From positions 868,001 to 932,000 of the forward strand of contig NZ_CP150918.1 of the NCBI RefSeq assembly GCF_039908635.1: a stretch of DNA of 64,000 nucleotides, in the 5' to 3' direction. The translations under genes were made by a program, and so were the position numbers. Source of the stretch: Pseudomonas purpurea (GTDB lineage Bacteria; Pseudomonadota; Gammaproteobacteria; Pseudomonadales; Pseudomonadaceae). Below, piece by piece: positions 36,456 to 55,820 of the stretch. Within the stretch, counting starts at the first letter, position 1. Each line of letters begins with the position of its first letter. Under the pieces are notes generated by a model that saw only the letters and a program-made list of their open reading frames with translations, ran no database searches and had not been told where the DNA came from.

Positions 36456-36677
36456 GTGACAGTGCCTCCGAGAACAGTTTGCTTTTGTGGCTGGCACTGG
36501 CGTCTCGAAGGTAATGGAATTTTATTGGCGGTTACGTTCGACGTGAGAATCCGACTGCACTTGTCAGTTGTCATCGATTTGCGTACGGAGTATGTGCGCG
36601 GCAGAGCTGTTCCATATTTAGAGATAGACTATTTTGGGCTGAATAAGCCCAGAATGTTTGCAGAGGGAAAAAATTGA
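36456..36677 (+). CDS. Doubtful 73-residue open frame coupled to the HNH-like gene
   Basis: The frame starts MTVPPRTVCFCGWHWRLEGN and ends FGLNKPRMFAEGKN. Its stop overlaps the TTG start of the next gene as TTGA, which hints at coupling. There is no clear ribosome site and no family resemblance, so it may not be translated. Confidence 0.3.
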   Translation: MTVPPRTVCFCGWHWRLEGNGILLAVTFDVRIRLHLSVVIDLRTEYVRGRAVPYLEIDYFGLNKPRMFAEGKN

Positions 36678-37450
36678 AAAATGGAATATGTGGGTTATGC
36701 AAAAAACAGGCAGTCCTGAAGAAAAGTCACTTATTACCTAAGTCGGCCTACAAAGTACTTAGAAACTCCGGAGCTAGGATTTCACCACCAACTAAAGTTG
36801 AGATTGATAGGAAGAGATTTGTACAAACAAACCGGCAAATAGTAGCGTATTTTTTATGTGGGAAGTGTGAGCAAGAATTTTCCGCAAAAGGTGAAGACGT
36901 AGTTTCAAAACTTTGGGCGAGAGGGGACAAGTTTCCGCTTTTGGATATTCTTCAGCAGCTTCTCCCTGTAAGTATTCGCGGCGAAAATTATGGATATGCT
37001 AATGAAGATCTGGATTCATTTATTGTCAGATCCTTACATTATTTTGCGGTCAGCGTCGTATGGCGTGCAATAAAATGGCCTGGTGGGGATTATAGCTTTG
37101 GTAATGCGGATGTCCGAATTAGTTACGAGAGCATGAAAAAAATAGAAGAGTATCTGTTGGGGGAATGTATCTGTCTCGAAGGCTCTCTAATATTAATTTC
37201 CGTCAATACTTATAATGGGTTGAATGATATAATAACGGTTCCTTCATGTCACGCTGGAGCTGTGCTTAACTTTTTTGAGTTTTATATTTTGGGTCTGAGG
37301 TTTAGGGTGTTTTTAAATCCTCTTTACTCTAAGTCGGAATTAAGTGTTGTAGAGAATGGATCAAATGTCATGATCGTAACTGCGGATCATGGTAATGACC
37401 CTTTTATAAAAGAAGTAGCCAAATTCTTTTTTATGAATAATCTATACTGA
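36674..37450 (+). CDS. HNH-like zinc-motif protein
   Basis: A 258-residue protein from a TTG start, with GAGGG about nine bases upstream. The N-terminus has a CxxC knuckle (CGLCKKQAVLKKSHLLPKSA, with the His-containing SHLLPK motif) and a second CxxC at FLCGKCEQEFS near 57-67, which together resemble the HNH/treble-clef nuclease type that begins with a zinc knuckle and SH[IL]xPK. The remaining 190 residues are not recognised. It is AT-rich and lies at the island border beside restriction-type genes, so a nuclease role in defence is plausible. Confidence 0.55.
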   Translation: MKNGICGLCKKQAVLKKSHLLPKSAYKVLRNSGARISPPTKVEIDRKRFVQTNRQIVAYFLCGKCEQEFSAKGEDVVSKLWARGDKFPLLDILQQLLPVSIRGENYGYANEDLDSFIVRSLHYFAVSVVWRAIKWPGGDYSFGNADVRISYESMKKIEEYLLGECICLEGSLILISVNTYNGLNDIITVPSCHAGAVLNFFEFYILGLRFRVFLNPLYSKSELSVVENGSNVMIVTADHGNDPFIKEVAKFFFMNNLY

Positions 37451-37606: not shown

Positions 37607-38413
37607 CTAAATTTCACCAAGGTAGTCTGAGTCGAGTTTGTATGTAGAATATTGTTTTGTTTCTATGACGCCTAGTCCGTACTCTATCATTAGTTGTGCT
37701 AAGTGATTTCCATCGATTAACGCTAGGTTTTTCTGTTGTTGTTCTTTTTCCGCAAAGTTGATTGCTGCTTTAGAGAATTTTGATGTGGTTATAAAGGCTC
37801 CTCTAACACCGTTTTTCATCGCGCCAACGAAGTCCCTTATTTGGGAGACCTCGACGGTACGGTTGTATGCGTAGCGTTTGACCTGAACATAAACTCTATC
37901 GAATCCTAATCTGTCCAAGTGAATTTCACCATCAATACCACCATCGGCGCCGGAAGGACTGTGTTTGATTGATCCATTGATCCCGTAGCCCATTTTTAAT
38001 AATAAATCGAGTACTAGAGATTCAAAAACTCTAGGTTGTAAAGTTATTATTTTTCCTAGGAGTTCTTGTTTGGTTTCGGTGATGTGCTTTTCATGAACTT
38101 GCTGGAGGTGTTCTTCCGGGATTTTATCTTTGCTTGTCGTACTAAGAGGAACCAAGGTTTCAATATTTTTGAGTAGGCCATACTTCCCACTCTCTGCTTG
38201 GAAGAAGTATTTGCGTGGCATGGCTGAAGGAAATGCTAACCCTTCACAATGCCTACGTATTTGCTGGCGAACTACTCCCACAGGAGTCTGTGTATTGAAC
38301 CTGTAAAGTTGTTTCTCTTCTATTTTTTCATGTATTTGCTGAGCTGAGAGGTTGCCCTTATTTTGGGTTAGGATATCTATGATTGCCTCGACAATGGTCC
38401 TTGAACGATTCAT
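37607..38413 (-). CDS. Mrr-type restriction endonuclease
   Basis: A 268-residue nuclease. The N-terminus (about 1-85) is a winged-helix HARE-like domain (IVEAIIDILTQNKGNLSAQQ); the C-terminus (about 125-230) is the Mrr catalytic domain with Glu131, Asp161 in GGIDGEI and Gln177-x-Lys179 in VQVKRY, the PD-(D/E)xK set. Mrr-family nucleases often cut modified DNA. It is third in a leftward operon, with its start overlapping the previous stop by four bases. It could restrict DNA by modification state in concert with the dnd genes. Confidence 0.88.
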   Translation of the reverse strand: MNRSRTIVEAIIDILTQNKGNLSAQQIHEKIEEKQLYRFNTQTPVGVVRQQIRRHCEGLAFPSAMPRKYFFQAESGKYGLLKNIETLVPLSTTSKDKIPEEHLQQVHEKHITETKQELLGKIITLQPRVFESLVLDLLLKMGYGINGSIKHSPSGADGGIDGEIHLDRLGFDRVYVQVKRYAYNRTVEVSQIRDFVGAMKNGVRGAFITTSKFSKAAINFAEKEQQQKNLALIDGNHLAQLMIEYGLGVIETKQYSTYKLDSDYLGEI

Positions 38414-39387
38414 GTTGACTCGATTTCAGTGAAGTTTGGAAAGTATCTATAGTTGTCCCATAATGCGTCAATATCTTTGTCTGTAAAAATTTTCTTTGAG
38501 AGTTTTTCTCTGTCAGGCATAGTCTCCATGATGTGTCTGATTTCCTTTATTGTTAAATTCGGCGTTTTTATTTCAAACGGTGAGTCTCCGCTTCTGTGAA
38601 AATATAGTTCGTTGAATCTGCACGCGGAGTGAATTTGGGTGTCGCTTTCTTTATAGAAGGTAAAAGCGATTGTTGCCATTTCGCAACCGTCCGCGTACTT
38701 AAAGAATAATACTTGGTCTATGTTTATTCTGTCTTTGGGCGGTAGTGCAGTGTTTCTAATGGTAATTATTTTTTGCATTTCTTTTTTTAAGCATTCTTTT
38801 AAAAAGATTGCTAGTCGTTTGCTTTGTTTCCAACCTCTCGTATCTATACCTGGCTGAACGTAGGGTTTTCCAACTAAATCTACAAGTTTAGACTCTATGT
38901 CCTCTGATGGGGTATTCTGATTTGAGCTGGAAATTAACGGAGAGCAATTGAAACTGGCGCTATAGATGCTTCCGCTTTCGATTGTTCCAGCGATTATTGC
39001 GGCATCATCAAGCATGTATGGAGAGAATGTGCCGTCATAGTCAAGCCAATAAATTTTCCTTCCTGGCTGGGCGGAAAGTTGAGGTAATACTTCGGTGGAT
39101 CTGCCAAACTTCATTTGAATGGAAGAGTATGGTTTATTGAACTCATATCGCTCAATGTTAGTTGTGTCGGCTTCGATGCTTATTAGGTTTTCTATACCTA
39201 GGTGACGATGGAATAGAGAAAAGTCTACGAAGTATTTTGATCCAAACCCGATATATTGATAGTCCTTAAGAGGCGCATGATGACGGAGGCAGCTAAACAC
39301 ATCTCGCATCATTTTGCGCTCAATGCTTTTAGCTGGTCGAATAGAATAATTTATTTTTCTGCCGCTATTACTCATTTTCGCACTCAT
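38410..39387 (-). CDS. Rossmann methyltransferase-fold protein, TcmP/O-methyltransferase-like
   Basis: A 325-residue protein with the layout of a class I methyltransferase: YIGFGSKYFVDF (motif I place, near 43-54), LISIEAD (acidic end of strand 2), and IYWLDYDGTFSP (motif IV place, near 115). No DNA-methylase DPPY/NPPY motif is present, so base methylation is unlikely. The remaining C-terminal 150 residues are unknown. Such proteins occur in defence islands beside ATPases. It overlaps both neighbours (20 bp and 4 bp), so the three proteins are made together. Confidence 0.6.
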   Translation of the reverse strand: MSAKMSNSGRKINYSIRPAKSIERKMMRDVFSCLRHHAPLKDYQYIGFGSKYFVDFSLFHRHLGIENLISIEADTTNIERYEFNKPYSSIQMKFGRSTEVLPQLSAQPGRKIYWLDYDGTFSPYMLDDAAIIAGTIESGSIYSASFNCSPLISSSNQNTPSEDIESKLVDLVGKPYVQPGIDTRGWKQSKRLAIFLKECLKKEMQKIITIRNTALPPKDRINIDQVLFFKYADGCEMATIAFTFYKESDTQIHSACRFNELYFHRSGDSPFEIKTPNLTIKEIRHIMETMPDREKLSKKIFTDKDIDALWDNYRYFPNFTEIEST

Positions 39388-40657
39388 ACTGGTAATAGTA
39401 GTCGAAAGTTAGCTTGCCAACTTGGGTGGCAGTTTTTACATCGAGAGATTCTTTGGCTTTTTCAAGTCTTTCATTCGAAATGGTGTAAGTAATAGAGGTG
39501 TAGTTTTTATCTGGCTTTGGAGGAATTATTTTTTCAGGGCGTATAAATTTCTCCGAAAGCGGCGCGTCTAAAATTCTGATAGAGTCTGCCGCGGCTATGC
39601 TATTAGCCAGGGGCGTTGATTCTATTAGCTCTTGATCGCAATTGTAGTTTTCCTCAGTACGTTCTCTTAGGAACTTTAAGATCGGCTCCATGCACTGCCC
39701 CATATGGAGTAAGGCATACTTATATACTTGGCTATCCCCATCCACGCCTGTTTTGGTGGTTGTCCAAGGTAGTTTGGAGGCATCTTCACAGGAAAATTCA
39801 ACTAACCCCCTGAAGAAGGCAAAATCAGTATGAAATTTGCTTGCTCCATTTTTTCCCCAGCCAGTCTTTTCTGTTTGGTCTGCCTCTGCAACTAACCGAC
39901 CATTGCATACTATGTACCAACCACTATCATCTTTGTCTCGGTCCGATAGACCACAAGTTATAGTTATATCTACATTTTCATATGTGAATTTTTTCTTTAT
40001 TAGGCTTAATTCTTTTGAGTTTTTTATTGTTATGTCTTTGCTTTTTATTGAGGTTTTGTTGAAAAAAATCTTAAAGCCGTTATTTATTTGCTTGAAGTAA
40101 GCTGCGGAGATTTCCCTCATCAGGTTGTTGAGGTAGGTTTCTTCAGAGAAGTTTTGAATGGTCTCCTCTTTTAGTTTGGTTACTGTTATTCTCGTTTCTC
40201 CATCTTTCAAATCCGGGTTTTCAAGTAAGTTAAAATAAAAGTGCCATTCCTTGATGTTTACCCATTTGTCTACGTCGACGCTTACATTGTATGCAGTTTG
40301 GTTGTGGTTTGACTCAACCTCGAACTTAGTTCCTAGCTTAAATAATGTGCGTTTCATGCCAACTCCAAACTGCCCTACAGAGTTTGGAGTGTCCGGTGCG
40401 TCTTTGGGGCGACCGAAACGAAAGGCGTAACCCTTCGCTTTTTCCAAATCTAAGCCGCCACAATTGTCCTTGATCTGAAAGTGTTCTTTCGTTGCTATGA
40501 TTATTATTTCGGGGTTCTGTAGTTCATTTTGAATGGCCGCATCTATGCTGTTATCAATTAAGTCAAGGATTGCTCGGTCTGTTGCAATGTCACGGGTCAG
40601 CATGTTAATGAAAAATTCTTTGGTAGGGTCTGCCTTTATTATGTTTTTATCTATCAT
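39368..40657 (-). CDS. GHKL-type ATPase (MutL/Hsp90/MORC-like)
   Basis: A 429-residue protein with a complete GHKL nucleotide site: N-box LDLIDNSIDAAIQ near 28-40, G1 motif IKDNCGGLD near 58 and the lid motif GQFGVGMKRT near 90. The C-terminal half shows no known domain. ATP-driven dimer clamping is usual in this fold. It heads the leftward operon with a methyltransferase-fold protein and an Mrr nuclease, suggesting a three-part restriction complex. The start at 40657 gives a standard N-terminus; the open frame extends to 40750. Confidence 0.85.
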   Translation of the reverse strand: MIDKNIIKADPTKEFFINMLTRDIATDRAILDLIDNSIDAAIQNELQNPEIIIIATKEHFQIKDNCGGLDLEKAKGYAFRFGRPKDAPDTPNSVGQFGVGMKRTLFKLGTKFEVESNHNQTAYNVSVDVDKWVNIKEWHFYFNLLENPDLKDGETRITVTKLKEETIQNFSEETYLNNLMREISAAYFKQINNGFKIFFNKTSIKSKDITIKNSKELSLIKKKFTYENVDITITCGLSDRDKDDSGWYIVCNGRLVAEADQTEKTGWGKNGASKFHTDFAFFRGLVEFSCEDASKLPWTTTKTGVDGDSQVYKYALLHMGQCMEPILKFLRERTEENYNCDQELIESTPLANSIAAADSIRILDAPLSEKFIRPEKIIPPKPDKNYTSITYTISNERLEKAKESLDVKTATQVGKLTFDYYYQYECENE

Positions 40658-41578
40658 ATGGGGTTCACTTTGATGAGGTTGTCGGTGGCCGCTGTTTGTT
40701 GCGGTGTGAGTAAGAAAGTTTTGGCTGTGCGAACATAGATATTTTTGCACACAAAATATTAGGTTTGCGCGCGCGTTTATATGTTTTTCTTTTGAGAAAA
40801 ATAAAGTTTTTAGGCAGATTCAATAAATTAATGCAATCCCAACTAACTTCGACACAATTCTGTGAAGTTAATAGTGGGGGGGGCTGATGTGGTGCAATCA
40901 GACTTATGTAGGATGATTGAGATCGTCGACGGTTTTGTCGGTTGCACTGGCCCACAACCATGCCAATCCTGAATACGACCAAGAAAGGTAAGACTGGTGC
41001 GTACCAAAGTTGGGTGATGGTGCGATCGAAGTCCATTTTTTGTCTTCCACGAATCCCTACCTCGTAGAGTATTACCGAAAAACCGTGTAATGGCACGAAG
41101 CTATTGTGCCGTTGGGAAATGCCCGTTCATCGAAAATGCGACGGAATGCCACAGATAGGAGGCGTGCCGGGCAAATGTATGGGCGCTTAGCTCTTATGCA
41201 GGCGGAGGCGAGCTGGTGAGCGATAGGTAGCTAAATCACCTGGCATCGTAGGTAGCGTCGAGTCTCGTCACCTGGACTTGAATTTGCGTTACACACGGAG
41301 AGTGAGCCCTATGGCTACCGGGTAACTGCGGCACCTACGTATTCATACGAAGGCGCTCCCCATTTCGGGCAGGATGGCAGTTAGCTATAGCTAATGTAAT
41401 CAGAGGCATATAGACGCTTTACCTGTGGGCCTGTCGATGCTGTTCACGACAGCATTTCCTGCCCAGGCCGGTCGTCTGAATTACGCTAGCGAGGCTCCGA
41501 ACTGGGCGAGCTAGCTGTACGTCTAGATCACTGCTCTTGTTTGTCTGTGCTGAAGCAAACATGTTAGGCTTCGCAGCC
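40658..41578. other. Divergent control region upstream of dndB with inverted repeats
   Basis: About 0.9 kb without a convincing gene. It holds perfect inverted repeats: CGTAT-TC-ATACG (41338-41349), TTAGCTATAGCTAA (41381-41394) and ATGCTGT-TCACG-ACAGCAT (41437-41455), the last enclosed by GGCCTG...CAGGCC. DndB is a repressor of dnd promoters in other bacteria, so these are candidate operators. A 143-residue open frame on the minus strand (40665-41096) looks non-coding. Confidence 0.5.
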
Positions 41579-42679
41579 ATGACCAGTCCTTTTTCTTACA
41601 CATTTCCTGCGATCCGCGGAGTACAAGCGGGGCGGGAATACTACGTCTCGATGTGCCCGCTTAGGCTTTTGGCGAAGCTATTTGTCTTTGATAATGAGGA
41701 GTTGATGCCGGAGCTGAGAGCGCAGCGGTCAATCAATCGCTCACGTATTCCTGAAATCGCACGATACATCGTCTCCAACTCGGGAAGCTACACGTTCTCT
41801 GCCATTACGGCATCCATCGATGGTGACTTAAGCTTCGCTCCGGTGAGCGAACGCGATACCAATCACTTTCGTATGGGGACGTTGACGGTCGATATGGACG
41901 CCAGATTCATCGTTAATGATGGGCAGCATCGGCGAGCGGCTATCGAGCTAGCTATTGAGGAGCGGCCTGAGCTTGGGGATGAAACCATCGCCGTGGTGTT
42001 TTTTCATGACCGTGGGCTAGAGCGTTGTCAGCAAATGTTCGCCGATCTCAACAGGCACGCCGTCAAGCCTTCAGCGTCGTTGAGTGTACTTTATGATCAC
42101 CGTAACGCGGCAGCTAGTGTGGCTAAGCATCTGGGTCTGACCTCGCGAGTGTTCAGGAACTTGATCGAGTCGGAGCGATCGTCACTGTCCAAGCGTTCCC
42201 GCAAGCTGTTTACCCTAAGTGCGCTTCATTTCTCCATTTTAGAGATGCTCAGCGAGCAAGAGTTGGAAGATTTTTCTGCCGCATCTAAGAAATGCAATGA
42301 GTTTTGGGAGGTTATTGGCGACCAAATCCCAGAATGGATATACGTACGAGAAGGGCGAATGACTGCCGGTGAGGTGCGCCAGGATTTTATCCATTCGCAC
42401 GCAATCGTACTTCAAGCTTTAGGACGTGTTGGGAAATTCATTTACAGGGCTGGAGCAGGGCAGCCTAACCTGAAAAACGTTTTCAGCAACCTGCGTGAGA
42501 TTGATTGGTCTCGATCTAACATTAAGACGTGGGAGGGGCGCGCCATGATTGGCGGACGAATGGCAAAAAACAGCCAAAATATCACGCTCACGTGCAATGA
42601 AATCAAACGCACACTCGGACTTCCTTTAAGCCCTGAAGAGCAAATTATCGAAAGCGCCTTTGCTGCTGCCCGCCAGTAA
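41579..42679 (+). CDS. dndB: DndB, DGQHR-domain regulator of DNA phosphorothioation
   Basis: A 366-residue protein with the family signature FIVNDGQHRRAAIELAI (DGQHR near residues 114-118) and LNRHAVKPSASLSVLYD. DndB binds the dnd promoter and represses it, and limits the amount of phosphorothioate. It is first of dndBCDE, 27 bp before dndC. Two starts (41561, 41579) are possible and neither has a strong ribosome site; the inner one gives the usual N-terminus YTFPAIRGVQAGREYYV. Confidence 0.93.
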   Translation: MTSPFSYTFPAIRGVQAGREYYVSMCPLRLLAKLFVFDNEELMPELRAQRSINRSRIPEIARYIVSNSGSYTFSAITASIDGDLSFAPVSERDTNHFRMGTLTVDMDARFIVNDGQHRRAAIELAIEERPELGDETIAVVFFHDRGLERCQQMFADLNRHAVKPSASLSVLYDHRNAAASVAKHLGLTSRVFRNLIESERSSLSKRSRKLFTLSALHFSILEMLSEQELEDFSAASKKCNEFWEVIGDQIPEWIYVREGRMTAGEVRQDFIHSHAIVLQALGRVGKFIYRAGAGQPNLKNVFSNLREIDWSRSNIKTWEGRAMIGGRMAKNSQNITLTCNEIKRTLGLPLSPEEQIIESAFAAARQ

Positions 42680-42706
42680 GGCTCTACGCTTCACATCGGA
42701 AAAATT

Positions 42707-44197
42707 ATGACCACGCCTCCCGAAACTATCATAGAAGAAATTCAGTCGCTTTACCGCTCTGATTCCATGCCCTGGATCGTAGGTTACAGCGGCGGCAAGG
42801 ACTCAACGGCGTCACTGCAGCTAATATGGAAGGCTGTCGCGTCTCTCCCTGCCGAGCAACGCACCAAAGATATTCATGTCATCAGTACTGATACCTTGGT
42901 CGAGAACCCAGTTATCGCGGCTTGGGTTGACTCATCGCTGCGAAACATGAAAGCCGAAGCGGAGCGGCAGGGGTTGCCAATTCATCCTCACCGGCTTACT
43001 CCCAGCCTTGAGCACCGTTTTTGGGTCAATCTGATAGGCAAAGGGTACCCCGCTCCCCGAAATCGTTTTCGTTGGTGTACTGACCGCTTAAAGATAAGTG
43101 CTTCCACGAAATTTATTCAGGAGTTGTCTGAGGCTAATAACGAGGCAATTTTAGTGCTCGGTCAGCGCCGAGGCGAAAGCCAGGCGCGTGACAAAGTGAT
43201 CGAAAACTACAGTGGAAGTACTCGCGATCGTCTGAGCCGTAATCGTGATCCCAAACTTTCTCGAGTTTGGGTTTATCTTCCTATAGAAACTTGGACTAGC
43301 GATGACGTCTGGATGTACGTCCTCACTGATGAAAATCCCTGGGGCGTCGACAACCAAGATCTGTTCAGCATCTATAAAGGAGCAACTCCTGACGCTGAGT
43401 GCCCGGTAGTGGTCGATAAATCGACACCCAGCTGTGGTGACAGTCGTTTTGGATGCTACGTGTGTACCATGGTGTCGCAGGACAAATCCATGCAGGCAAT
43501 GATTCAGAACGACGATCAAAAGTCCTGGATGAAGCCGATTCTAGACTTCCGCAATAATTATTTAAGTGTGCAGGACTGGGACGTCCGGGATTTCAAACGT
43601 ATGAACGGCCGCGTAAAACTAATGGGTAAGGGGGATACTGCTGAGCTTATACATGGTCCTTACTTGCAGAGTTATCGAGCAAAGCTGTTGGAAGAACTAC
43701 TGCGTACCCAGTGTGCGTTACGGGATGCTAAAGTCCCAGGACATGTTCAAATCGAATTGATCTCCCTTGATGAACTTGATGCCATTCGACGCATCTGGGT
43801 TGAGGAAAAGGGTGAAATTGAGGACTTAGTTCCGGAAATTTATGAGCGCGTTTTCCTTGAGAAATACCCAGGGCGGGTAATGGAGCCTGTTCCTTTGGAA
43901 GCAGAGGACTTGGCGTTATTAAACGAAATCGCTACAGAGCTCGATCCCGAGGCTAGTAACCAGCTTTATCAACTCACTCGCAACCTGCTCGCTGTCCAAT
44001 TTCAATCCATGCAGACCCAAAAACGCTCTCGCCATTTAGACCGTTTGGAAGAAGTTCTCAAGGCCAACGCGTTCCGTACAGAGTTTGATGCTTTAGAATT
44101 CGCTAAAAGCACTCGTGACGAAGATCAGGATGAGGCGAGTACTAACGACGAGCTAGAATTGATTCCTCTAGCAGTAGTAGAAGAGGAAGAGAAGTAA
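42707..44197 (+). CDS. dndC: DndC, phosphorothioation sulfurtransferase-type ATP pyrophosphatase
   Basis: A 496-residue PAPS-reductase-like enzyme. The P-loop GYSGGKDSTASLQ is at about 26-38. Cysteines that hold the 4Fe-4S cluster are visible in RWCTDRLK (near 124) and in the C-terminal CPVVV...PSCGDSRFGCYVC cluster (about 232-253). It activates the DNA backbone and passes sulfur from a cysteine desulfurase. No dndA is present, so the host IscS probably serves. Two bases separate it from dndD. Confidence 0.95.
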   Translation: MTTPPETIIEEIQSLYRSDSMPWIVGYSGGKDSTASLQLIWKAVASLPAEQRTKDIHVISTDTLVENPVIAAWVDSSLRNMKAEAERQGLPIHPHRLTPSLEHRFWVNLIGKGYPAPRNRFRWCTDRLKISASTKFIQELSEANNEAILVLGQRRGESQARDKVIENYSGSTRDRLSRNRDPKLSRVWVYLPIETWTSDDVWMYVLTDENPWGVDNQDLFSIYKGATPDAECPVVVDKSTPSCGDSRFGCYVCTMVSQDKSMQAMIQNDDQKSWMKPILDFRNNYLSVQDWDVRDFKRMNGRVKLMGKGDTAELIHGPYLQSYRAKLLEELLRTQCALRDAKVPGHVQIELISLDELDAIRRIWVEEKGEIEDLVPEIYERVFLEKYPGRVMEPVPLEAEDLALLNEIATELDPEASNQLYQLTRNLLAVQFQSMQTQKRSRHLDRLEEVLKANAFRTEFDALEFAKSTRDEDQDEASTNDELELIPLAVVEEEEK

Positions 44198-44199
44198 GC

Positions 44200-46185
44200 A
44201 TGGCCAAGTTAACAATTAATAGAATTTCTATCGAAAATCTCGGCCCATTCCGTGAGCAGCAAATTTTCGATTTAAGCGTGCAAGCCCTGCACCCTGTGAT
44301 TTTGGTGAAAGCTCTAAATGGCAGCGGTAAGACCACTCTTCTCACTGCCTTGCAGATTGGCTTGTATGGTTACAAGGCCATTAACCAAACTCGGCGCACA
44401 GAATATGACCAGCTAATCACCGGTTTGCAGCGCTCGGACGCCACTGGACCTGCTCGAATAGAAATGCAGCTTGGTATTGAGGTCGGCGACTACACACAGG
44501 TGCTTACCATCCGTCGTGAGTGGTTACCTAAGGAAAAAGGTTATCGTGAGCGTTTTCGAGTCTTCGCTGGACATTTCGAGGACTTAGCACTTGCGGAAGA
44601 TTGGGATGACTTCATCAACGGCATTATGCCGGTGGAGCTAGTTCACCTTTTTCTTTTTGATGGAGAGAAAATCGAGGCCTTGGCCAACCCTGAACGTCTT
44701 CCTGAGCTTTTACGTCGAGCGACGGAGGTTTTCTTAGGGGTGGGTGGCATCGACGCATTAGCTGGAGATTTGAGAGCTCTAGAGCGTCGAACTAATAAAA
44801 AGAATGCTCCTGGAGGGGGGGGCGACGAGCCCCCGGCTGACGACTATGAGCTGCAGCTCAAAGAGTTAAATGGGCAAATCGATATAGTGTCGCAACGTCA
44901 AGCCCATGCTAGGAACGAACTAGACGATGCGCAGCGTAAGTTAGAGGCGTACTCAGTCGAGGCCCAACGTAGTGGCCTCAAAGCTTATCAGCAAGCCGCG
45001 GATTTAGGGGCTCGAGCTAAACTTAGCAAGCAGCAATATGAACATGCGCGAACTGCGTTAGTCGCTGCCTTGGAGGATCCGCTCCTCCCTTTAGCGTGGT
45101 TATCTCCACTTTGGGCTGGCTACAAGGTTCAGTGGCAGAAAGATCGCGATGCTAAGCACGCTAACTTGCTGCTCGAAGAGTTTGCTGATCGTGACAAGCG
45201 AATTTTGGAACTATTGGCCGACAGGGCTCCGAACGCTCAACATGATGTCGCTGAGCTGCTAGCAGCTGACTTGCAGGAGCTGCGAGCGGTCGAGGAACAT
45301 TCGCCAGTGTTTCTGCAAGGGGGTGACCCGGCTGAGTTAGAGCCGGGTCTAGAGCAAGCCAAACAACGTTTGAAAGCTGCGCAGGAAGATGTTTCGGTTA
45401 CTCAACAAATTATGGAGAAAGCTCAACAAGCAGCGGAGCAGATACCTGATGATGAACAAATTGGTTCTGTTTTTCAGGCTATGCAAAGTCTCACTCAAGC
45501 TGTATCAGTCGCTGAATTGAAGTCACAACAGTTAAGTCGCGAACTGGACGATCTAAGGGGCAAACAAGTCCATTTTGAGCAGCGACACAACGCTGCAATG
45601 TCACGAAATCGAGCCGAGCTGAAAGAGGGTGCCTTCCAGCGTATTGCTTTGGAAGCTGCTGATCGTGCGAAAGTAACGCTGAACATCTTTCGAGATCGCC
45701 TATTAGCTTCGAAGGCAAAGTGGCTGTCGGAGATGATAACCGCTGAATTTAAGCAGCTGCTTCGTAAGAGAAACCTGATCTCTCGTGTTTTAGTAGAGCC
45801 GCAGACGTACGCGGTTTCCATCGAAGACGTAAACGGCCATACCTTGCCAATGGAGCGCCTATCAGCAGGCGAGCGGCAAATACTGGCTATTTCAGTACTG
45901 AGCGCGTTAATTCGAGAGCGCAAAGGTCGATTCCCAGTAGTAGTAGATACCCCTTTAGCGCGCCTAGATCGCCAGCATCGAGAAGCTTTAATCCATAACT
46001 TCTTCGCCAAAGTTTCTCATCAAGTGTTAGTGTTATCTACGGATGAAGAGGTGGAAGGTAGTGTGCATAAGGCTTTGGAACAGCATTTGAGTCGAGAGTA
46101 TGAATTGATTTTTGATGATGAGAGTCGTCGAAGTTTAGTTTCGGTAAGAGCTCACCAGGCCCACTTGGTAATGACCAATGATTGA
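44200..46185 (+). CDS. dndD: DndD, SMC-like ATPase of the phosphorothioation complex
   Basis: A 661-residue ABC/SMC-type ATPase. Walker A ALNGSGKTTLLTAL lies near 34-47, a long coiled coil spans about 215-510, and the C-terminal half has the signature LSAGERQILAIS and Walker B FPVVVDTPLARLD. It probably opens or scans DNA for DndC. It overlaps dndE by eight bases, showing one operon. Confidence 0.95.
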   Translation: MAKLTINRISIENLGPFREQQIFDLSVQALHPVILVKALNGSGKTTLLTALQIGLYGYKAINQTRRTEYDQLITGLQRSDATGPARIEMQLGIEVGDYTQVLTIRREWLPKEKGYRERFRVFAGHFEDLALAEDWDDFINGIMPVELVHLFLFDGEKIEALANPERLPELLRRATEVFLGVGGIDALAGDLRALERRTNKKNAPGGGGDEPPADDYELQLKELNGQIDIVSQRQAHARNELDDAQRKLEAYSVEAQRSGLKAYQQAADLGARAKLSKQQYEHARTALVAALEDPLLPLAWLSPLWAGYKVQWQKDRDAKHANLLLEEFADRDKRILELLADRAPNAQHDVAELLAADLQELRAVEEHSPVFLQGGDPAELEPGLEQAKQRLKAAQEDVSVTQQIMEKAQQAAEQIPDDEQIGSVFQAMQSLTQAVSVAELKSQQLSRELDDLRGKQVHFEQRHNAAMSRNRAELKEGAFQRIALEAADRAKVTLNIFRDRLLASKAKWLSEMITAEFKQLLRKRNLISRVLVEPQTYAVSIEDVNGHTLPMERLSAGERQILAISVLSALIRERKGRFPVVVDTPLARLDRQHREALIHNFFAKVSHQVLVLSTDEEVEGSVHKALEQHLSREYELIFDDESRRSLVSVRAHQAHLVMTND

Positions 46186-46549
46186 CCGAATTCGTTTAAC
46201 CGCTGCAGCGAAAATTCAGCTCTCTACGTTGAAGCGTAAGACTGGTATAGAACATTATAATTCTATATGTCGGCATGCACTTTGCCTGTCTTTGGCGGAG
46301 CCATCCGCGCTGCCAGATGAGGAGTTCAATTATAGTGGTGGAGTAGAGATAGATTGGCGAGTCTTTACAGGCGGATTTGACGAGCTATATCTTAATCTGT
46401 TGCTACAGCGCCTTCAGCAAGATGGTAAAGAACCTAGTGTTGAAAACATTAGAAAGCTATGTGTGAGCCATCTGCATCGAGGGCTCTCTTATCTCGCCGG
46501 TAAGAGTGATAGCTATTTAGCGGATACTATCTACCGAACCTTGTGTTAG
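46178..46549 (+). CDS. dndE: DndE, nicked-DNA-binding phosphorothioation subunit
   Basis: A 123-residue protein matching the DndE family: IRLTAAAKIQLSTLKRKTGI, the CRHALCLSLAEPS helix and the C-terminal HRGLSYLAG. DndE forms a positively charged tetramer that binds DNA and joins DndC-DndD. Last gene of the core modification operon. The usual dndFGH restriction genes do not follow. Confidence 0.93.
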   Translation: MIDRIRLTAAAKIQLSTLKRKTGIEHYNSICRHALCLSLAEPSALPDEEFNYSGGVEIDWRVFTGGFDELYLNLLLQRLQQDGKEPSVENIRKLCVSHLHRGLSYLAGKSDSYLADTIYRTLC

Positions 46550-46876: not shown

Positions 46877-48820
46877 ATGGCTATGCCGCCCGGCCCAAGA
46901 AATATTGACGTTTTTGGCTTGAAGCTGCGTGGCTCATTCGGTCGATTTCAAACCGATTCGAGTCATACGTTGAATTATCTGTCTACTACGCTTCGAATTA
47001 GTCAGCTCGAAAAGCTCAACGTAGCTGCGGATGTATTCAATATTCGCCGTGTAGCATTCGAGGAGCTTATCCAGAGGGATATTGATCATTCTAGAGTTGT
47101 CCGTATAGCTGAAGGCTACTTAAAAATGGGGAGCCAGCGGGCGGTTTTTTTTCCGCCTTTGTTGGTGTGTCTAGCGGTGATGGATAGCGATAACAATCTT
47201 AAACCTAATTATGACTCTGTCATTCAGCAACCGATTTCAGAGGGCACTTTAAGTACGGTTTATGATCGTGATGGTTTCAAGCTCGACTTGTACCAAGCCG
47301 CGCAGGGGCAAGGTGGGCGCGTGATAGATTGGCTTGGAGAGGCTGTAGAGTTTTATGACTACGCGGCGATGCTTGGGGTCAATCCAGACCGTACAAAGTT
47401 GGTAACTTTAGACGGGCAGCATCGGCTTCAAGCGCTTCGGCTGCTAAATAGTAAGCCGGAAACTAAACAGATCGTGGCCAATATTGAGCAACCTGTTTGT
47501 ATAGTCTGGATGCCCTTAGCTACGGCGGAGGGGGATGAGCAAATTGTCAAAGACTTGCGCGATATTTTTGTTACAGTTAACTCAGAACCGCAGCGCGTTA
47601 GCGGACATTTCATCCTGCTGCTTGATGACTCAAGTAATGCAGCCTCTGCGGTGCGTTCCTTAGCGAACCAGTGGAAACATGATATAGAGGACAACGATTG
47701 GAGCCGTCTCCACTTGTTAGAGTGGAATACACGCGAGAATCAAAGTACCGACGCTAGATTGCGACCTTTTTCTATCACCACTGTCTCGATAGTTGCCGGT
47801 ATACTTGAAAATTATTTGTTTGGTGTTCCGCGTCTAGCCGCTGCAATGCTGAAACTCGGAGAGTGTGAGGATAAGCTAGAGGAAATCGATCCTGAATTTG
47901 ATCCGTTGGGGATGCGCGACCAATCTCCAGGGCTGCGTATTGATCCAATAATTCGGGAACAAATTAACTCTCACCTTACTCCTGCGTTAGATGTTCTCTT
48001 GCGTAAGCTGCGCCCATATCAAGAGCTCGAATATCGCTTAGGTAAAGCGTTTGCTAAAGTCAAAAAGCAAACCGATCTTGGGAATCCAGCAAGTGCAAGT
48101 TTGTCTAATTATCTCGCTCGATTTGTTTATAATGAGAGGGAGATGTATGATGAGCTCGCTCAGGGAGCTTGGGCAGTATTCAAGGCTGATAACCAAGTTC
48201 CAGATAAAGATGTTGTGTATATGCGACAAGCCTTTCAGCAAGGTTATATGCGCTTTTGGTTAACTCTGGCTCGTGAGTTAGCTCACCAAGGGGTGGATAA
48301 TGTTCGTATAGTGAACGCCGCAGTAGCGGCTTCTAATGTGTTCGTAGCATCCTCCCAGTTAGACTATTTGAGTGAGCATCAATTATATACTCGCAGGGTT
48401 CTTTGGAAGAACGATAACATCAATTTTGGCGCGCAGTGGGCTAGAGATGCATGGGCTGATATTCAGCTTGCTGCTCTTCTGCGTCAAGACGTGCGCGAAG
48501 CGTTAATAGAACAATTGAAAGCCGACATGGATTTGGAGCAACAGGGGGTTTTCGATCGTCGATTATTGGCTTTGGGTACAGATGCTGCGCTACGTTATTC
48601 CTCAACAATGCTTGATCAAATATCTCGCGATGTTAAGCGCAATTTGGCTGATTTTTTCGGCGAAACCGAAGCTGGTTCTCTCAGAGATTTGAGAAAAAGT
48701 GATCCTGCTGCATTCGAGGAAAGTACTGGCGAGAAGGCTATGGAGAAGTTTAGGGAGGCGTTAACTCGTTTTGCCAATCAGCTCGAACAGGATCCTTCTG
48801 ATCTTTGGCCTGTGGAGTAA
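46877..48820 (+). CDS. Second DGQHR-domain protein (long DndB relative)
   Basis: A 647-residue protein with the DGQHR signature LVTLDGQHRLQALRLLN at about 176-192 and the downstream family segment LRDIFVTVNSEPQRVSGHFI. It is almost twice as long as DndB; the C-terminal 300 residues are helical and unrecognised. Relatives in other islands (DndB, DpdB) act in DNA modification. It is paired with the next gene, which starts four bases after its stop, and lies 327 bp after dndE. It may sense modified DNA or regulate its partner. Confidence 0.8.
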   Translation: MAMPPGPRNIDVFGLKLRGSFGRFQTDSSHTLNYLSTTLRISQLEKLNVAADVFNIRRVAFEELIQRDIDHSRVVRIAEGYLKMGSQRAVFFPPLLVCLAVMDSDNNLKPNYDSVIQQPISEGTLSTVYDRDGFKLDLYQAAQGQGGRVIDWLGEAVEFYDYAAMLGVNPDRTKLVTLDGQHRLQALRLLNSKPETKQIVANIEQPVCIVWMPLATAEGDEQIVKDLRDIFVTVNSEPQRVSGHFILLLDDSSNAASAVRSLANQWKHDIEDNDWSRLHLLEWNTRENQSTDARLRPFSITTVSIVAGILENYLFGVPRLAAAMLKLGECEDKLEEIDPEFDPLGMRDQSPGLRIDPIIREQINSHLTPALDVLLRKLRPYQELEYRLGKAFAKVKKQTDLGNPASASLSNYLARFVYNEREMYDELAQGAWAVFKADNQVPDKDVVYMRQAFQQGYMRFWLTLARELAHQGVDNVRIVNAAVAASNVFVASSQLDYLSEHQLYTRRVLWKNDNINFGAQWARDAWADIQLAALLRQDVREALIEQLKADMDLEQQGVFDRRLLALGTDAALRYSSTMLDQISRDVKRNLADFFGETEAGSLRDLRKSDPAAFEESTGEKAMEKFREALTRFANQLEQDPSDLWPVE

Positions 48821-48824
48821 GCAT

Positions 48825-50024
48825 GTGCTGTGGACAGAAGGAACCTCAGTAGACGGTGCGCGCATCGTTTACGTTAAGCACAGTGATATGGACGACGCCA
48901 GTTTGCACATTAGCTGCGGTAATTGGCCTAACGTAGAGCAGGTTGTAAGAGTGCTTCCTGCAGGTTGTGCGCATGTCGATGTGATAGACGCTCTAGTACG
49001 CCTGCAGTCTATTAAAGACTGTGTCCGGCAGCAAATTGATACGCCCGGGTTTCTTGCTGCAGTTGGTGCGTTGCAAGAATCTGTCCGGGATATAGTGCAG
49101 TCTGCTTGTGAGCTTTTAGTTGGCTTGAGACGTTTCGACATTAATGCGGTATGTACATCTGCTTCACGCCTCGAGTTTTTTTGCGGAATGTCAAATGTTT
49201 TACCTATAAGCTCGCAGCGTCTTCTCATAAAGATTTCGCAGTTTGTATCAGAGTTTGGGCGTACTTCGTTACATGAGTGGAGCTTGCCTGCTTTCTTTAT
49301 TCATGATGATGCGTTGCCTAAATACCGAGTTTGGTGGAAAGAGCCTTCATCTTTGGCTAACTCTTTAGAGCGCTCAAATCAGCGTTTTGCCGCCATTCTA
49401 AATGGTGGAGTACCTTCGAGCCTGCAAAAAGTCAAAGACTGGATTGAAGCAATTAAAGAGGAAGCCAAAGATTTGCATTTAGAGGTGGCTTCTACGCGCA
49501 AGGAGTCTGACGTTTTCAGACAGGCCTCAGCGTTTATGACGGTTTCCTCAGATGTTCATTATGCTAACAAAAATTATGTACTTGCTTTACTGTTCTTGCA
49601 TAGGGCGGCTGAATGGCTGCTTGCGGCTAAATGCGCAGATCAGAACATGCTTGATTTTACCTCCCGGAGTGGGGCTCGAATGGCCAATCCAAATAAGGAT
49701 TGGGTCGGTTTTGATGCTCTGCATTCTGCTCTATCTAATAGTGGATTTTCTATTGGCGGAATCTCAAATGATTTGATTAAGTTGAATTCCTGGAGGAATC
49801 TTTTTGTATATACACATCATATGTCTTGCCCCCGTTCGGTTGATGCTGAAAGCTTGTTTCTAAGAGTCCGGAGTGGGTTGGATAATATCGCTAACAGTAA
49901 ATGGAAGGGCGCAGTAAAGGTGTTGGGCGAACCTTGGCCAGTAGAACTGGAGGATATGCTTGATCCGAATGGGGACCTAAGAAGCTCGTTTACAGTTCAT
50001 TCGGCTTTATCGCTGGCTATATAG
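48825..50024 (+). CDS. Protein with HEPN-like C-terminal domain (putative effector)
   Basis: A 399-residue protein starting at GTG 48825 (GGAG upstream); the open frame to 48771 overlaps the previous gene and is less likely. The C-terminal part has a helix FLHRAAEWLLAAKC near 264-277 and then SWRNLFVYTHHM with Arg324 and His331, an RX6H motif as in HEPN ribonucleases such as Csm6/Csx1. The N-terminal 200 residues are unrecognised. Coupled to the DGQHR gene, it could be an RNA-cutting toxin of a defence unit. No database support was available. Confidence 0.5.
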   Translation: MLWTEGTSVDGARIVYVKHSDMDDASLHISCGNWPNVEQVVRVLPAGCAHVDVIDALVRLQSIKDCVRQQIDTPGFLAAVGALQESVRDIVQSACELLVGLRRFDINAVCTSASRLEFFCGMSNVLPISSQRLLIKISQFVSEFGRTSLHEWSLPAFFIHDDALPKYRVWWKEPSSLANSLERSNQRFAAILNGGVPSSLQKVKDWIEAIKEEAKDLHLEVASTRKESDVFRQASAFMTVSSDVHYANKNYVLALLFLHRAAEWLLAAKCADQNMLDFTSRSGARMANPNKDWVGFDALHSALSNSGFSIGGISNDLIKLNSWRNLFVYTHHMSCPRSVDAESLFLRVRSGLDNIANSKWKGAVKVLGEPWPVELEDMLDPNGDLRSSFTVHSALSLAI

Positions 50025-50998: not shown

Positions 50999-51085
50999 AT
51001 GGCATGTCCCCCTTTTAAGCCCGTGCGCCACCGTGGTCTTCTGTTTCGCACTGCAAATTATCTCGGAGGATTCCGCGATGTTTGA
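50999..51085 (+). CDS. Possible 28-residue leader peptide
   Basis: An ATG with the strong site AAGGAGATAAGGAAA starts MACPPFKPVRHRGLLFRTAN and stops at 51083-51085, just inside the next gene (start 51078). The overlap would couple translation of the two. The peptide is Arg/Pro-rich and unrecognised. Confidence 0.4.
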   Translation: MACPPFKPVRHRGLLFRTANYLGGFRDV

Positions 51086-51614
51086 TCTCTCGCTTCTCAT
51101 CGGCCTCCCCAAACCCAACACCATCGATACTGAATCGCTTAACCCTGAAGATGCCGCGATTAAACTACGCCAAGCTGCCACTCTTCGGCTCAACGGAGCC
51201 CAGAGTGTTCTGCTTCATTGTCCGCAGGACGTTGAGCTGGCTGTAGAGCTGTTGGATGACGCGGCAGTGCTGTTCGACAAGGCGTTCCGATATCTCTCGG
51301 GTATCCCCGCTCAACGTGTCCATCAACAGATTGGTGACTACGTCTCTGTGCCTTCCGCCGAAGGCTGTCCCGGTATCCGAACACCATGGGGCAATGAATT
51401 CCGCCCGATGATTGAGGATGGCGTTCGATGCGCTGAGACTTGGCTCGATGGTTCATCATTACCCCTCTGGTGGGCACTGGCGCAAAACCGAAAGCATCAT
51501 CGCCCAGGTGATCCGCAGGATGCGTTTGAAGCAGGCTTTCTGCTGAGGTTGCAGCAGGTACTGATCATGGGGCGTGAAGCATTCACTTCCCAATCAACCA
51601 GCTTTGATGCCTGA
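51078..51614 (+). CDS. Hypothetical island protein of 178 residues
   Basis: A soluble protein starting MFDLSLLIGLPKPNTIDTES with GGAGG eight bases upstream. The middle is helical (DVELAVELLDDAAVLFDKAF) and the C-terminal part contains DGSSLPLWWALAQNRKHH. Composition is typical of the GC-rich conserved part of Pseudomonas islands. No function recognised. Confidence 0.65.
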   Translation: MFDLSLLIGLPKPNTIDTESLNPEDAAIKLRQAATLRLNGAQSVLLHCPQDVELAVELLDDAAVLFDKAFRYLSGIPAQRVHQQIGDYVSVPSAEGCPGIRTPWGNEFRPMIEDGVRCAETWLDGSSLPLWWALAQNRKHHRPGDPQDAFEAGFLLRLQQVLIMGREAFTSQSTSFDA

Positions 51615-51959: not shown

Positions 51960-52677
51960 GACCGCCTTTTCGTGCATGTATAAAAATTGGCGCACAGATC
52001 GCTGTCGTTGACAGCACCTGCCCAGGTAGCCAGAACCTTTAAGGCTACGCCACTTGCGTGGTGGTTTTCCCAAAGTGCGATTAGCATCCGGCGGCTCGCA
52101 CGGTCACTCCCCAGGAGTGATGGGTGCTCACTCGACTTAATCTGCCCATTGCGGCAGACGATGGACCTACCTCGCTGCACTGCAGCAACCTCACCTCTCG
52201 GCACACTTCGCTGCGCCAGACCGCGCCCGTCTCTTTCTTCTGGAAAGAGACGGGCGCTCGTACCACTGTTGCAAGCCATGTCGTACAAGGCATTGCCGCA
52301 ACTCTCCTCGTGACAATCGGCCTGACAACTCCGATTCGTCGCCATCCGCAATGACACAGGCACCGGTGCCGCAGCCTATGGACAGGCTGCACCTGACTGA
52401 CAGTCAGGCATGCCCCTGGTGTCGATGTTGTTGCCTTCTCCCACTCAGGATCTCCAGGTGCCGAACTCGTCAGTCGGCACAGCCTCCACCCGCCCGCACC
52501 TTCGGATGCGTTTAAGGAGGCCAGATTCATGGGTTCATGCCCTTGCTCCCGGTCGTAAGGAGCCGTGCGTTCCGCGTCAGTGAACACCTCACAGGCCGCA
52601 GGGGCCTTGATCCCTGATAACACTCAACAGTCGTGGCGGGACTACGTGAGGACAACTAGCAATTGAGGAGAGGGCCC
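51960..52677 (+). other. Structured non-coding region with serial hairpins
   Basis: No convincing gene. At least six perfect inverted repeats follow each other: GTGCGA/TCGCAC (52075-52101), TCACTCC/GGAGTGA (52104-52120), a 15-bp stem GCGCCCGTCTCTTTC/GAAAGAGACGGGCGC (52223-52257), GGCACCGGTGCC (52359-52370), GCAGCCT/AGGCTGC (52371-52390) and CTGACT/AGTCAG (52393-52407). It could be a replication or transfer origin, or a structured leader RNA of the DUF3987 gene. Confidence 0.5.
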
Positions 52678-54084
52678 ATGCAGCAGTTAGATCCGAAGCT
52701 TGAACTACCACGACCACCTCGACCGCTGATTGAGTCGAATCCCGTGGCCCAGCCTTATCCGGTGCGGGCACTGGGTGGGATTCTTGGGCCTGCGGTGGAG
52801 CGCATGGCCGAGGTTATCGGCGTGCCCCAAGCACTGGCCGCGCAATCGGTGTTGGCCACCTCAGCGCTGGCCACCCAAGGTCATGCGGGCTTACAGCTCG
52901 ACGGGAGAGATTATCCCCTGTCGCTGTACCTGATCACGGTGGCCGCGTCAGGGGATCGTAAAACGGCTGCAGATCGATTTGCATTGCTGCCCGCGCGTCA
53001 ATGGGAGCGTGAGCAGTGGCAGCGCTACCGCGAACAGCTCGCCCGGTACCGTGTCGCGCAGCGACAGGCACTGCGTGTCAACCCTGTCGAACCCGACTCC
53101 ACAGTAAGCATGGCGCTTGAAACGGAGCCCTCTGCACCCAGACTTATCACCACAGATCCAACCATTGAAGCCCTGATTAAGGGGCTCTGTCATGACTTGC
53201 CCAGCATGGGGCTGTTCTGTGATGAGGGCGGACAATTTCTCGGCAGCAGCACCATGAGTCGGGATAACCGTTTGAAAGCGGTTGCGGCCTTGTCGTCACT
53301 CTGGGACGGTAGCCCTATTGATCGTGCTCGTTCGATGGCAGGCGAAAGCCTTCGGGCTTATGACCGACGCTTGAGCCTGCACCTCATGCTGCAACCGTAC
53401 TTGGCCATGCAGTTACTCAGTGACCCGTTGCTGCAGGGGCAAGGCATCCTCGGTCGTTGCTTGATGACCTGGCCCACCAGTCTAGCCGGGCAACGGAGCT
53501 ACCAGGCTGTCGACTTGTCCAAAGACGCCGCCCTGAAGCGATATCACCGCCGCCTTTCGGCCCTGTTTTATCAGCCCTGGTCGCTTTCCGCTGATGGTGC
53601 CTTGCAGCTATCACCGCTTAGCCTCAGCCCGTTAGCCCGCCGTCGCTGGATTGATCTACATGATGCTATCGAAGCTCAGTTGGGTGAGTTTGGCGAGCTG
53701 GCCAGCGTACGGCCCAGCGGATCGAAGGCCGCCGATAACCTGCTGCGCGTCGCCGGCATTCTTGCAGTTGTGGAGGAGAGCAGCGTCGTGGAGGTCGACC
53801 ATATCCAACGGGCCTCCGCTTTAGTCGGCTACTACCTCACCGAGATCCAGCGCCTGACTGAGCAGGAGCCAGTGTGTCGGGTAAAGGAAGAAGCGGACCG
53901 GTTGCTGCGATGGCTACAGGTCAAAGATTGGAAGCGTTTCAGTATTCGTGAATTGAATCGCAACGGTCCCCGCTTTGCCCGTAAGAGCAGTCGTCATACC
54001 GCCAAGCTGTTGGTCGAATTGATTGATCATCAGTGGCTCATCACTGACGGCCACACCTTCGAGGTGCGCCATGTTCAATATTGA
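52678..54084 (+). CDS. DUF3987-family protein (YfjI-like, replication-associated)
   Basis: A 468-residue protein with a P-loop-like segment (LITVAASGDRKTAADRF) in place of a standard Walker A, the LITTDPTIEALIKGL and GLFCDEGGQFLGSS family motifs, and a C-terminal winged-helix-like part (KRFSIRELNRNGPRFARKSS). DUF3987 proteins are common in satellites and islands and are thought to act in replication or stability. GAGGAG precedes the ATG. It lies between the two TGTCGCC repeat blocks. Confidence 0.8.
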   Translation: MQQLDPKLELPRPPRPLIESNPVAQPYPVRALGGILGPAVERMAEVIGVPQALAAQSVLATSALATQGHAGLQLDGRDYPLSLYLITVAASGDRKTAADRFALLPARQWEREQWQRYREQLARYRVAQRQALRVNPVEPDSTVSMALETEPSAPRLITTDPTIEALIKGLCHDLPSMGLFCDEGGQFLGSSTMSRDNRLKAVAALSSLWDGSPIDRARSMAGESLRAYDRRLSLHLMLQPYLAMQLLSDPLLQGQGILGRCLMTWPTSLAGQRSYQAVDLSKDAALKRYHRRLSALFYQPWSLSADGALQLSPLSLSPLARRRWIDLHDAIEAQLGEFGELASVRPSGSKAADNLLRVAGILAVVEESSVVEVDHIQRASALVGYYLTEIQRLTEQEPVCRVKEEADRLLRWLQVKDWKRFSIRELNRNGPRFARKSSRHTAKLLVELIDHQWLITDGHTFEVRHVQY

Positions 54085-55388: not shown

Positions 55389-55654
55389 CGGCCGAGTTCG
55401 ACATAGCGTTGTTCCTGCGCCCCGTGCTCAAAGGTGCACATGCCACGCAGCAGCGGCACATCAGGCAAGCAGAAAGGATGCACGAGGTGATTCGTGAACG
55501 CTGGGGTTGCGCGACTCCCTGGTCTTGGAGAGAAAAGCACGTGAGATGGTTTCTGGAGCACTATTTGCGATGCTCAGCTCCAGCTACCGTCTACTACTAC
55601 GAGTTAACAGCAGGGTTGATCCGCCGTAGAAAGGCAAAAGTCGTGGTTGCCTGA
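55385..55654 (+). CDS. Small integrase-N-terminal-like protein
   Basis: An 89-residue protein overlapping the recombinase stop as ATGA, so the two are co-translated. The sequence RHIRQAERMHEVIRERWG and KHVRWFLEHYL resembles the core-binding domain of tyrosine recombinases without a catalytic part. It may be an accessory DNA-binding partner. The ending RRRKAKVVVA is basic. Confidence 0.6.
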   Translation: MTAEFDIALFLRPVLKGAHATQQRHIRQAERMHEVIRERWGCATPWSWREKHVRWFLEHYLRCSAPATVYYYELTAGLIRRRKAKVVVA

Positions 55655-55670
55655 TAGATCTTTAAGCATG

Positions 55671-55715: not shown

Positions 55716-55820
55716 TGGCTGAAGAAGCGCAGGCATACCAGAGATCTGGCAACTGTCGTCACTCCTTTCGCTCTACTACAGGACACGGATCGTAACCGGT
55801 GGCGCGTACCTTTTGGATGT

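Follow-up and report, generated by a model that had tools for sequence, protein, structure and literature searches.

What is a three-gene operon doing opposite a complete set of DNA phosphorothioation genes that lacks its usual restriction partner? The operon encodes a GHKL ATPase, a protein of the Pfam family Methyltransf_35 (PF20553; MT35 for short) and an Mrr-type nuclease. It faces dndBCDE in a stretch of 64,000 nucleotides from Pseudomonas purpurea (assembly GCF_039908635.1, contig NZ_CP150918.1, positions 868,001 to 932,000), which is called the window below; the locus is part of a 5.93-Mb genome in one contig. The original prediction, made from the sequence, offered a phosphorothioate-linked restriction module or an independent defence system. 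We find that the pair of GHKL and MT35 genes (the dyad) is a real module that is widely distributed but rare; modules of this kind are known, its range of partners is new, and the window holds one Dnd-paired member. The pairing of GHKL with MT35 is constant, closeness to a modification gene is near-constant, and the partner chemistry switches. We infer restriction as the function: with a probability of about 0.6, the dyad is a modification-gated restriction module, which in the window is paired with phosphorothioation.

Seven genes are open in this region, dndBCDE at 41537-46549 (+) and the facing operon at 40750-37607 (-). Scores and model cut-offs are in bits.

37607..38413, minus strand: Mrr-type PD-(D/E)xK nuclease with a putative N-terminal HARE-HTH-like domain; Mrr_cat (PF04471) 99.4 bits, cut-off 21
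38410..39387, minus strand: MT35, Methyltransf_35 (PF20553) protein, dyad core; 294.9 bits, cut-off 27
39368..40750, minus strand: GHKL ATPase (HATPase_c_3), dyad core; 50.3 bits, cut-off 25
41537..42679, plus strand: DndB; TIGR03233 571.7 bits, cut-off 328
42707..44197, plus strand: DndC, phosphorothioation sulfurtransferase; TIGR03183 676.1 bits, cut-off 290.4
44200..46185, plus strand: DndD, ABC-type ATPase; TIGR03185 659.8 bits, cut-off 245.85
46178..46549, plus strand: DndE; TIGR03184 103.2 bits, cut-off 71.85

DndB, DndC, DndD and DndE are encoded in one operon and each scores above its curated NCBIfam equivalog cut-off, so that the Dnd phosphorothioation modification module is complete, as had been predicted. 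The cluster has no dndA; this gene is absent from 19 of 31 dnd clusters according to PMC3519819 (papers given by PMC number are cited from excerpts or from their main text). The facing operon is as tight as originally described, with an overlap of 20 nt between MT35 and GHKL and of 4 nt between Mrr and MT35. The divergent gap between GHKL and DndB is about 0.92 kb when counted from inner ATG codons at 40657 and 41579, which are the likely starts of these two genes. For MT35, an inner ATG at 39375 is the start in most of the aligned relatives; the protein is 96% identical to one from 'Candidatus Pseudomonas colombiensis'. The nuclease carries the signature DGGIDG...QVK (D...QxK) and is thus an Mrr-family restriction endonuclease. 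Its HARE-HTH score is 25.8 bits against a cut-off of 25.9 (26.3 and 18.1 bits in loci L011 and L042, see below). GC content is about 0.40 over the three-gene operon, about 0.49 over the dnd genes, and 0.54-0.65 outside roughly 35-52 kb; the difference between the first two suggests that the operon and the dnd part arrived separately.

Which part of this arrangement is conserved? Patterns built on an alignment of 24 MT35 sequences yielded 51 loci from genome contigs, to which genome searches added four (55 chromosomal loci, not counting the window). A GHKL gene accompanies MT35 in 53 of the 55, the exceptions being L045 and L050, the latter of which begins close to the end of its contig. The GHKL gene comes immediately before MT35, in the same orientation and with a gap of -74 to +5 nt, in all 54 pairs (53 loci plus the window). 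The third gene is variable. A member of the Mrr cluster occurs in 4 of 56 loci (the window, L011, L024 and L042, in the latter on the opposite strand), which rules out the three genes as a conserved unit, and L106 codes for an Mrr_cat protein near dnd genes without the dyad. Elsewhere, the gene directly upstream of the dyad encodes a SIR2_2 (L030, L031), PIN_8 (L027) or HNH_2 protein (L008, L015, L048), as judged from one scanned member per cluster. The labels C5, Vsr, HNH_2, SIR2 and Dnd were assigned in each locus by clustering or by phmmer comparison with one representative that had been scanned by Pfam/PADLOC. Just after the dyad and Mrr, L024 has a gene (11965-12537, minus strand) for a weakly BglII-endonuclease-like protein (18.6 bits, cut-off 26).

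With which modification genes does the dyad occur? When the fetched flanks are examined in all 55 chromosomal loci, a C5 cytosine methylase is found in 24, dndC in 22 and an N6/N4 methylase in three (L010, L051, L054; in L010 it is about 6 kb from the dyad), and a further locus, L024, has a more distant N6/N4 methylase (see below). Four loci have Dnd fragments only (dndA-like or dndG/H: L017, L041, L045, L048), and all of these except L045 are on cut contigs. In one locus, the 6.1-kb contig L026, no modification gene was found. The genomes of L017, L026 and L048 contain dndC elsewhere, and that of L024 contains a C5 methylase elsewhere; genomes G302 (L010), G754 (L045) and G755 (L051) have neither dndC nor a C5 methylase. 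The two major partners never co-occur in one locus (P = 1.5e-8 assuming independence, uncorrected for kinship; the loci are not independent). A control search for C5 methylases at E 1e-5 in 12 dnd loci that lack the dyad (L106-L117, several being short) found none.

Among the 22 dndC loci, 11 have both DndB and DndE clusters, seven a DndE-HerA fusion and two another small DndE (domains were seen on one member each). Same-strand gene runs join the dyad to dnd genes in L030, L028/L044 and L020. In L020, the gene between dndD and the dyad (7132-8616) codes for a DndE domain fused to a HerA/FtsK-type ATPase (domains seen in L020). Relatives from the fusion cluster occur in L013, L016, L019, L022, L025 and L038; such loci represent a compact form of Dnd that includes a translocase-like gene. 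L018 codes for a second DndB-family protein between MT35 and dndE. At 8851-11240 in L054, not far from the dyad, a MutH-like nuclease is encoded beside D12 and N6/N4 methylases.

The dyad is also found on mobile elements, with matches in two plasmid records and one phage record; no DNA-level match was obtained in E. coli genomes. In the filamentous phage PfAC20, the genes for GHKL, MT35 and a C5 methylase stand in a row, then comes a small hypothetical gene. This methylase is listed as an incomplete system in PMC11878078. A C5 methylase is present in the fetched stretch of all eight viral contigs with the dyad (with PfAC20, nine of nine phage records or contigs). In the Microvirga plasmid L094 (2446-12984) and in L139 from the Bacteroidota genome G923 (3666-16180), the dyad is located between an MmeI/Eco57I-type methylase and the DISARM gene for DrmA. 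The methylase of L139 is DrmMI by PADLOC, and L094 and L139 are sisters in both the MT35 and the GHKL tree.

Does the frequency of Dnd partners exceed chance? In 398 genomes from the phylum, dndC scored above its cut-off in 13 (12 of 397 when the own genome is omitted, 28 of 397 at E <= 0.001). Compared to the latter two backgrounds, its occurrence in the flanks of 22 of the 51 genome-contig loci is a strong excess (Fisher 3e-15 and 2e-10). Unselected genomes (398 from the phylum and 369 from the class, these two samples overlapping, and 395 Bacteroidota) contain PF20553 in eight cases, the own genome and G754, the chosen centre, being excluded. A modification partner lies within the fetched stretch in all eight: a C5 methylase in three (G094, G201, G345), an N6/N4 methylase in three (about 6 kb away in G302, adjacent in G1080 and G797), DISARM in one (G923) and Dnd in one (G595). 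In G595, the dyad genes are broken; dndD, the DndE-HerA gene and dndA were seen, and dndC would fall past the contig end. One Dnd case in eight is not above background (Fisher P = 0.23), and this, together with the C5, N6/N4 and DISARM partners, rules out a phosphorothioate-specific dyad. The dyad as a whole is mostly found without dnd genes, but the clade of the window is not. Thus, of the proposed phosphorothioate-linked module, the linkage stands, given the excess of dndC and the Dnd pairing of the nearest kin; specificity for this mark and the membership of Mrr do not.

The history of partner switching was followed on an MT35 tree with 66 rows and a GHKL tree with 62 rows, both built with a quick method. 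Broken or cut MT35 sequences (L044, L048, L104) and the duplicates L001-L006 and L105 were left out, as were L053 and L099 in the partner-class trees; the GHKL alignment and tree additionally lack L011 and L017 (cut). At least nine changes among four partner classes are required on the MT35 tree and at least eight on the GHKL tree, and these minima become lower when only branches with strong support are counted. The partner labels (C5 and phosphorothioation) are clustered on the trees, with none of 500 shuffles giving a value as low; pairing is thus stable over long spans, with occasional switches. The window MT35 belongs to an all-Dnd clade of nine rows (support 97 in the SH-like approximate likelihood ratio test, SH-aLRT), and the window GHKL to an all-Dnd clade of eight rows (99). 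The nearest kin of the pair are found in L011, L012 and L013, and the latter two have a dndCD-type module.

Could another restriction part serve the phosphorothioate mark in this genome? DndH was not found in the whole genome, which agrees with the predicted lack of dndFGH (DndF and DndG were not searched singly); the same search was positive in three other genomes, one being the source of the query. Nor was a PbeA-type PLD/SF2 helicase found, the genomes of L030 (source of the query), L042 and L033 being positive, so that neither signature of a dndFGH or pbe set elsewhere was detected. GmrSD_N/DUF262 was not found either (8 of 14 named controls were positive), and without DUF262 there is no DndI or SspE. 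A C5 DNA methylase was likewise not found (10 of 14 controls positive). The model dnd_assoc_1 (TIGR03236) had no match in a search that had no positive control. GHKL and MT35 match none of the Pbe, Ssp or Dnd models. The own-genome searches left out N6/N4 methylases, DndF and DndG singly, SspFGH and SBD-HNH (ScoMcrA-like) nucleases, so a second, distant partner is conceivable on the modification as well as on the restriction side.

What can be said about the two dyad proteins? DNA clamping by GHKL ATPases is established for MutL-like proteins. The ATP-site motifs DLxDNSxD, DNCGG and GxGMKR are kept in nearly all of 61 relatives of the window GHKL, in which they read DLIDNSIDA, DNCGG and GQFGVGMKR. 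The excerpts of PMC2292703 argue for DNA-clamp action and for kinship of GHKL proteins with the MutL superfamily.

In MT35, residues E72, N84, W114, D116, E282 and P317 (numbered from the start at 39387) are invariant in 63 of 63 sequences; a WLDYD-type motif is present in 58 and D118 in 54 of the 63. The motif IV of N6/N4 methylases ([DNS]PP[YFW]) occurs in none of the 63 relatives, and MT35 as a DNA methylase was rejected on this ground; loose C5-like patterns occur in one (PC) and three (ENV) of them. The MT35 profile did not match sets of C5 and N6/N4 methylases in a comparison which is insensitive, since N6/N4 against C5 itself gave only 2.7%. Compared to 12 neighbouring families, the best value was a probability of 2.0% (for the HerA-DndE fusion), while two far branches of MT35 were matched at 100%; this says little on deep fold kinship. 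No relatives were found in PDB by sequence up to E = 1. Of the predicted methyltransferase fold without DNA-methylase motifs, the lack of the N6/N4 motif holds; the word methyltransferase comes solely from the Pfam name (putative O-methyltransferase).

We propose that GHKL-MT35 would be the restriction half of a system with an interchangeable modification half, here DndBCDE, which would mark self DNA with phosphorothioates. As its superfamily suggests, the GHKL ATPase may form an ATP-gated dimeric DNA clamp, and MT35 could be its obligate subunit, acting as a site reader or as the carrier of an effector. On DNA without the mark of the partner, the complex would be licensed to act, by blocking or damaging this DNA, and marked DNA would release or silence the complex, if gating has this direction. 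The adjacent gene (Mrr here; HNH_2, PIN or SIR2 elsewhere) might provide an optional extra effector. The two-gene unit is thus probably the half that attacks unmarked DNA, and one that several marking systems can use. It is tempting to go further and to speculate that the dyad is a chemistry-agnostic restriction engine, in which MT35 would have a Rossmann-like fold and, instead of being a methyltransferase, would be a metal-dependent nuclease or another effector of a new type. E72, D116 (both invariant) and D118 (in 54 of 63), with the WLDYD motif, can be cited for this; we regard this extension as tentative and somewhat doubtful.

Several points weigh against the proposed restriction module. 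No nuclease motif is recognised in MT35, and sequence comparison gave no relative of solved structure. The search patterns for the 51 loci were built on relatives of the query, so that the sample favours the Dnd clade, and among 13 dndC-positive genomes in the phylum sample, only the own one contains PF20553. The numbers given for N6/N4 methylases are raw counts from those loci that have neither a C5 methylase nor dndC, uncorrected for how often such methylases lie near random genes; in L024, the N6/N4 methylase is at a distance of about 9 kb, with iron-transport genes in between, and probably has no connection with the dyad. The dyad also occurs alongside DndG/DndH in four loci (L014, L015, L039, L048) and alongside PbeA-type helicases in three (L030, L033, L042). 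From these cases and from DISARM it follows that the dyad can be an addition rather than the sole restriction part. The four DndG/H loci rule out a plain substitute for DndFGH.

The variety of marks and the mutual exclusion of C5 methylase and dndC argue against the rival explanations. The dyad might belong to the modification side, where it would target, complete or alter the mark, with MT35 being a real methyltransferase for DNA or for a partner protein, and with restriction performed by Mrr or by nothing. The Pfam call fits this, as do the position of the dyad at the end of the run dndC-dndD-[DndE+HerA]-GHKL-MT35 in L020-like loci and its coexistence with other restriction parts (DndGH, DISARM). 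However, a chemical co-factor would hardly suit marks as unrelated as backbone sulphur, 5-methylcytosine (5mC) and N6/N4 methyl groups, the N6/N4 motif IV is missing from all 63 MT35 sequences, and the run in PfAC20 consists of dyad and methylase, then a small hypothetical gene; we consider a modification-side role rather unlikely. A role as MutL/Vsr-like repair accessory for damage at modified bases (e.g., 5mC deamination), outside defence, is suggested by the MutL superfamily relationship (argued in PMC2292703) and by Vsr-type genes (cluster c8), which nine of the 55 chromosomal loci, three mobile ones (L095, L102, L103) and L139 contain. But phosphorothioates are not known to suffer such damage, c8 members are found in none of the 22 dndC loci, and the dyad also occurs in DISARM and N6/N4 loci, which makes this role highly improbable.

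The three genes could also be an independent system, causing abortive infection or, as in type IV restriction, attacking modified DNA, which merely travels together with modification genes in defence islands. This would be in line with the ability of some Mrr nucleases to attack modified DNA, with L024, where the nearest modification gene is about 9 kb from the dyad and Mrr, and with the different GC contents of the operon and the dnd genes, possibly reflecting separate arrivals. Independence, which the original prediction had offered as its second option, is a poor fit, since hardly any dyad lacks a modification gene in its vicinity: closeness and shared gene runs in nearly every locus, and the C5/dndC exclusivity, exceed what co-residence in islands would give, and the 12 control loci count on the same side. 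We find an independent system unlikely.

How does the proposed restriction module relate to known systems? Among the closest are the MORC/paraMORC proteins (Iyer, Abhiman, Aravind 2008, PMC2292703), GHKL proteins in mobile operons, mostly with cytosine methylases and Vsr nucleases, which were proposed to loop DNA and to couple recognition to cleavage. They combine GHKL with an S5 fold in operons of restriction-modification (R-M) systems. The comparison covered motifs and neighbourhoods: the window GHKL has the GHKL motifs, and its relatives have R-M-like neighbourhoods, so that it may be a member of this group. MORC/paraMORC differ in having superfamily II helicases as their usual partner, and the excerpts mention no Dnd, phosphorothioation or methyltransferase-like obligate partner. 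Dnd neighbourhoods have been surveyed (Rakesh, Aravind, Krishnan 2024, PMC10853773): as in the window, DndBCDE is often found without DndFGH, and the Mrr gene may correspond to a HARE-HTH-fused restriction endonuclease described there beside Dnd genes. In the main text of that survey, as far as available, 'GHKL', 'MutL', 'HATPase' and 'Mrr' do not occur, and 'GHKL' does not occur in the main texts of PMC12839542 and PMC12458937.

Separate restriction parts working with the phosphorothioate mark are known from PbeABCD (PMC6459918), DndI (PMC11662687) and SspE (mentioned in PMC11662687), in which respect they are similar; they differ in that searches of the own genome detected no PbeA-type helicase and, for DndI and SspE, no DUF262. 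The pair HEF_HK/Response_reg_2 (PMC8011034) is likewise a GHKL protein with a second gene beside a C5 methylase, but the window proteins match neither family in the Pfam scan. GHKL ATPases act in phage defence in the GHKL-Shedu protein VcSduA (PMC12137116), there joined to a nuclease domain, whereas the Pfam scan of the window found no Shedu nuclease domain. They do so also in MZA, but the MzaB model, whose cut-off is 850 bits, was matched at 20.5 bits. Among the literature matches listed, with subscription papers and supplements outside the scope, we met no account of the GHKL-MT35 pair, nor of GHKL occurring with Dnd or within DISARM; PF20553 and its name gave no paper among the matches listed.

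What would follow from this assignment? According to the excerpts of PMC10853773, DndFGH is present in 806 of 3416 taxa having a modification component and an endonuclease. Many Dnd loci are thus without DndFGH, and the dyad is a testable, though rare, candidate user of the phosphorothioate mark. Some R-M calls now listed as incomplete could become complete, e.g., that of PfAC20, where GHKL and MT35 precede the methylase. A module serving several unrelated marks would need a general way of sensing whether or not DNA is modified; in the literature as far as available, we met no restriction part so described. If the dyad were a chemistry-agnostic engine, some "orphan" C5 methylases and some dndBCDE sets that lack dndFGH would belong to complete systems whose restriction half had gone unrecognised.

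Several neighbouring genes of the window deserve mention. Downstream of dndE, the gene at 46877-48820 (+) codes for a protein with a DGQHR domain, which scores 38.3 bits with TIGR03187 (cut-off 58.85, not reached) and matches DndB weakly. An overlapping gene at 48771-50024 (+) codes for a protein of 417 aa that has no match in Pfam, NCBIfam or PADLOC up to E 0.1. Its C-terminal stretch RNLFVYTH, as judged by eye, resembles a HEPN motif. Convergent with Mrr, the gene at 36674-37450 (+) codes for a protein of 258 aa with CxxC pairs and the stretch SHLLPKSAY, which is HNH-like by eye; its PADLOC matches are weak. At the island edge, 51033-51614 (+) codes for a QslA-like protein (PF18226, 39.5 bits, cut-off 25) from the LasR antiactivator family. 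The region 52663-57657 contains genes for a DUF3987 protein and an Integrase_1 protein (54351-55388), an Arm-DNA-bind_3 integrase gene (55821-57228, minus strand) which is apparently split over two overlapping frames (one frame was scanned), and the gene for transfer-messenger RNA (57264-57657, minus strand). This gene set is probably an island inserted at ssrA.

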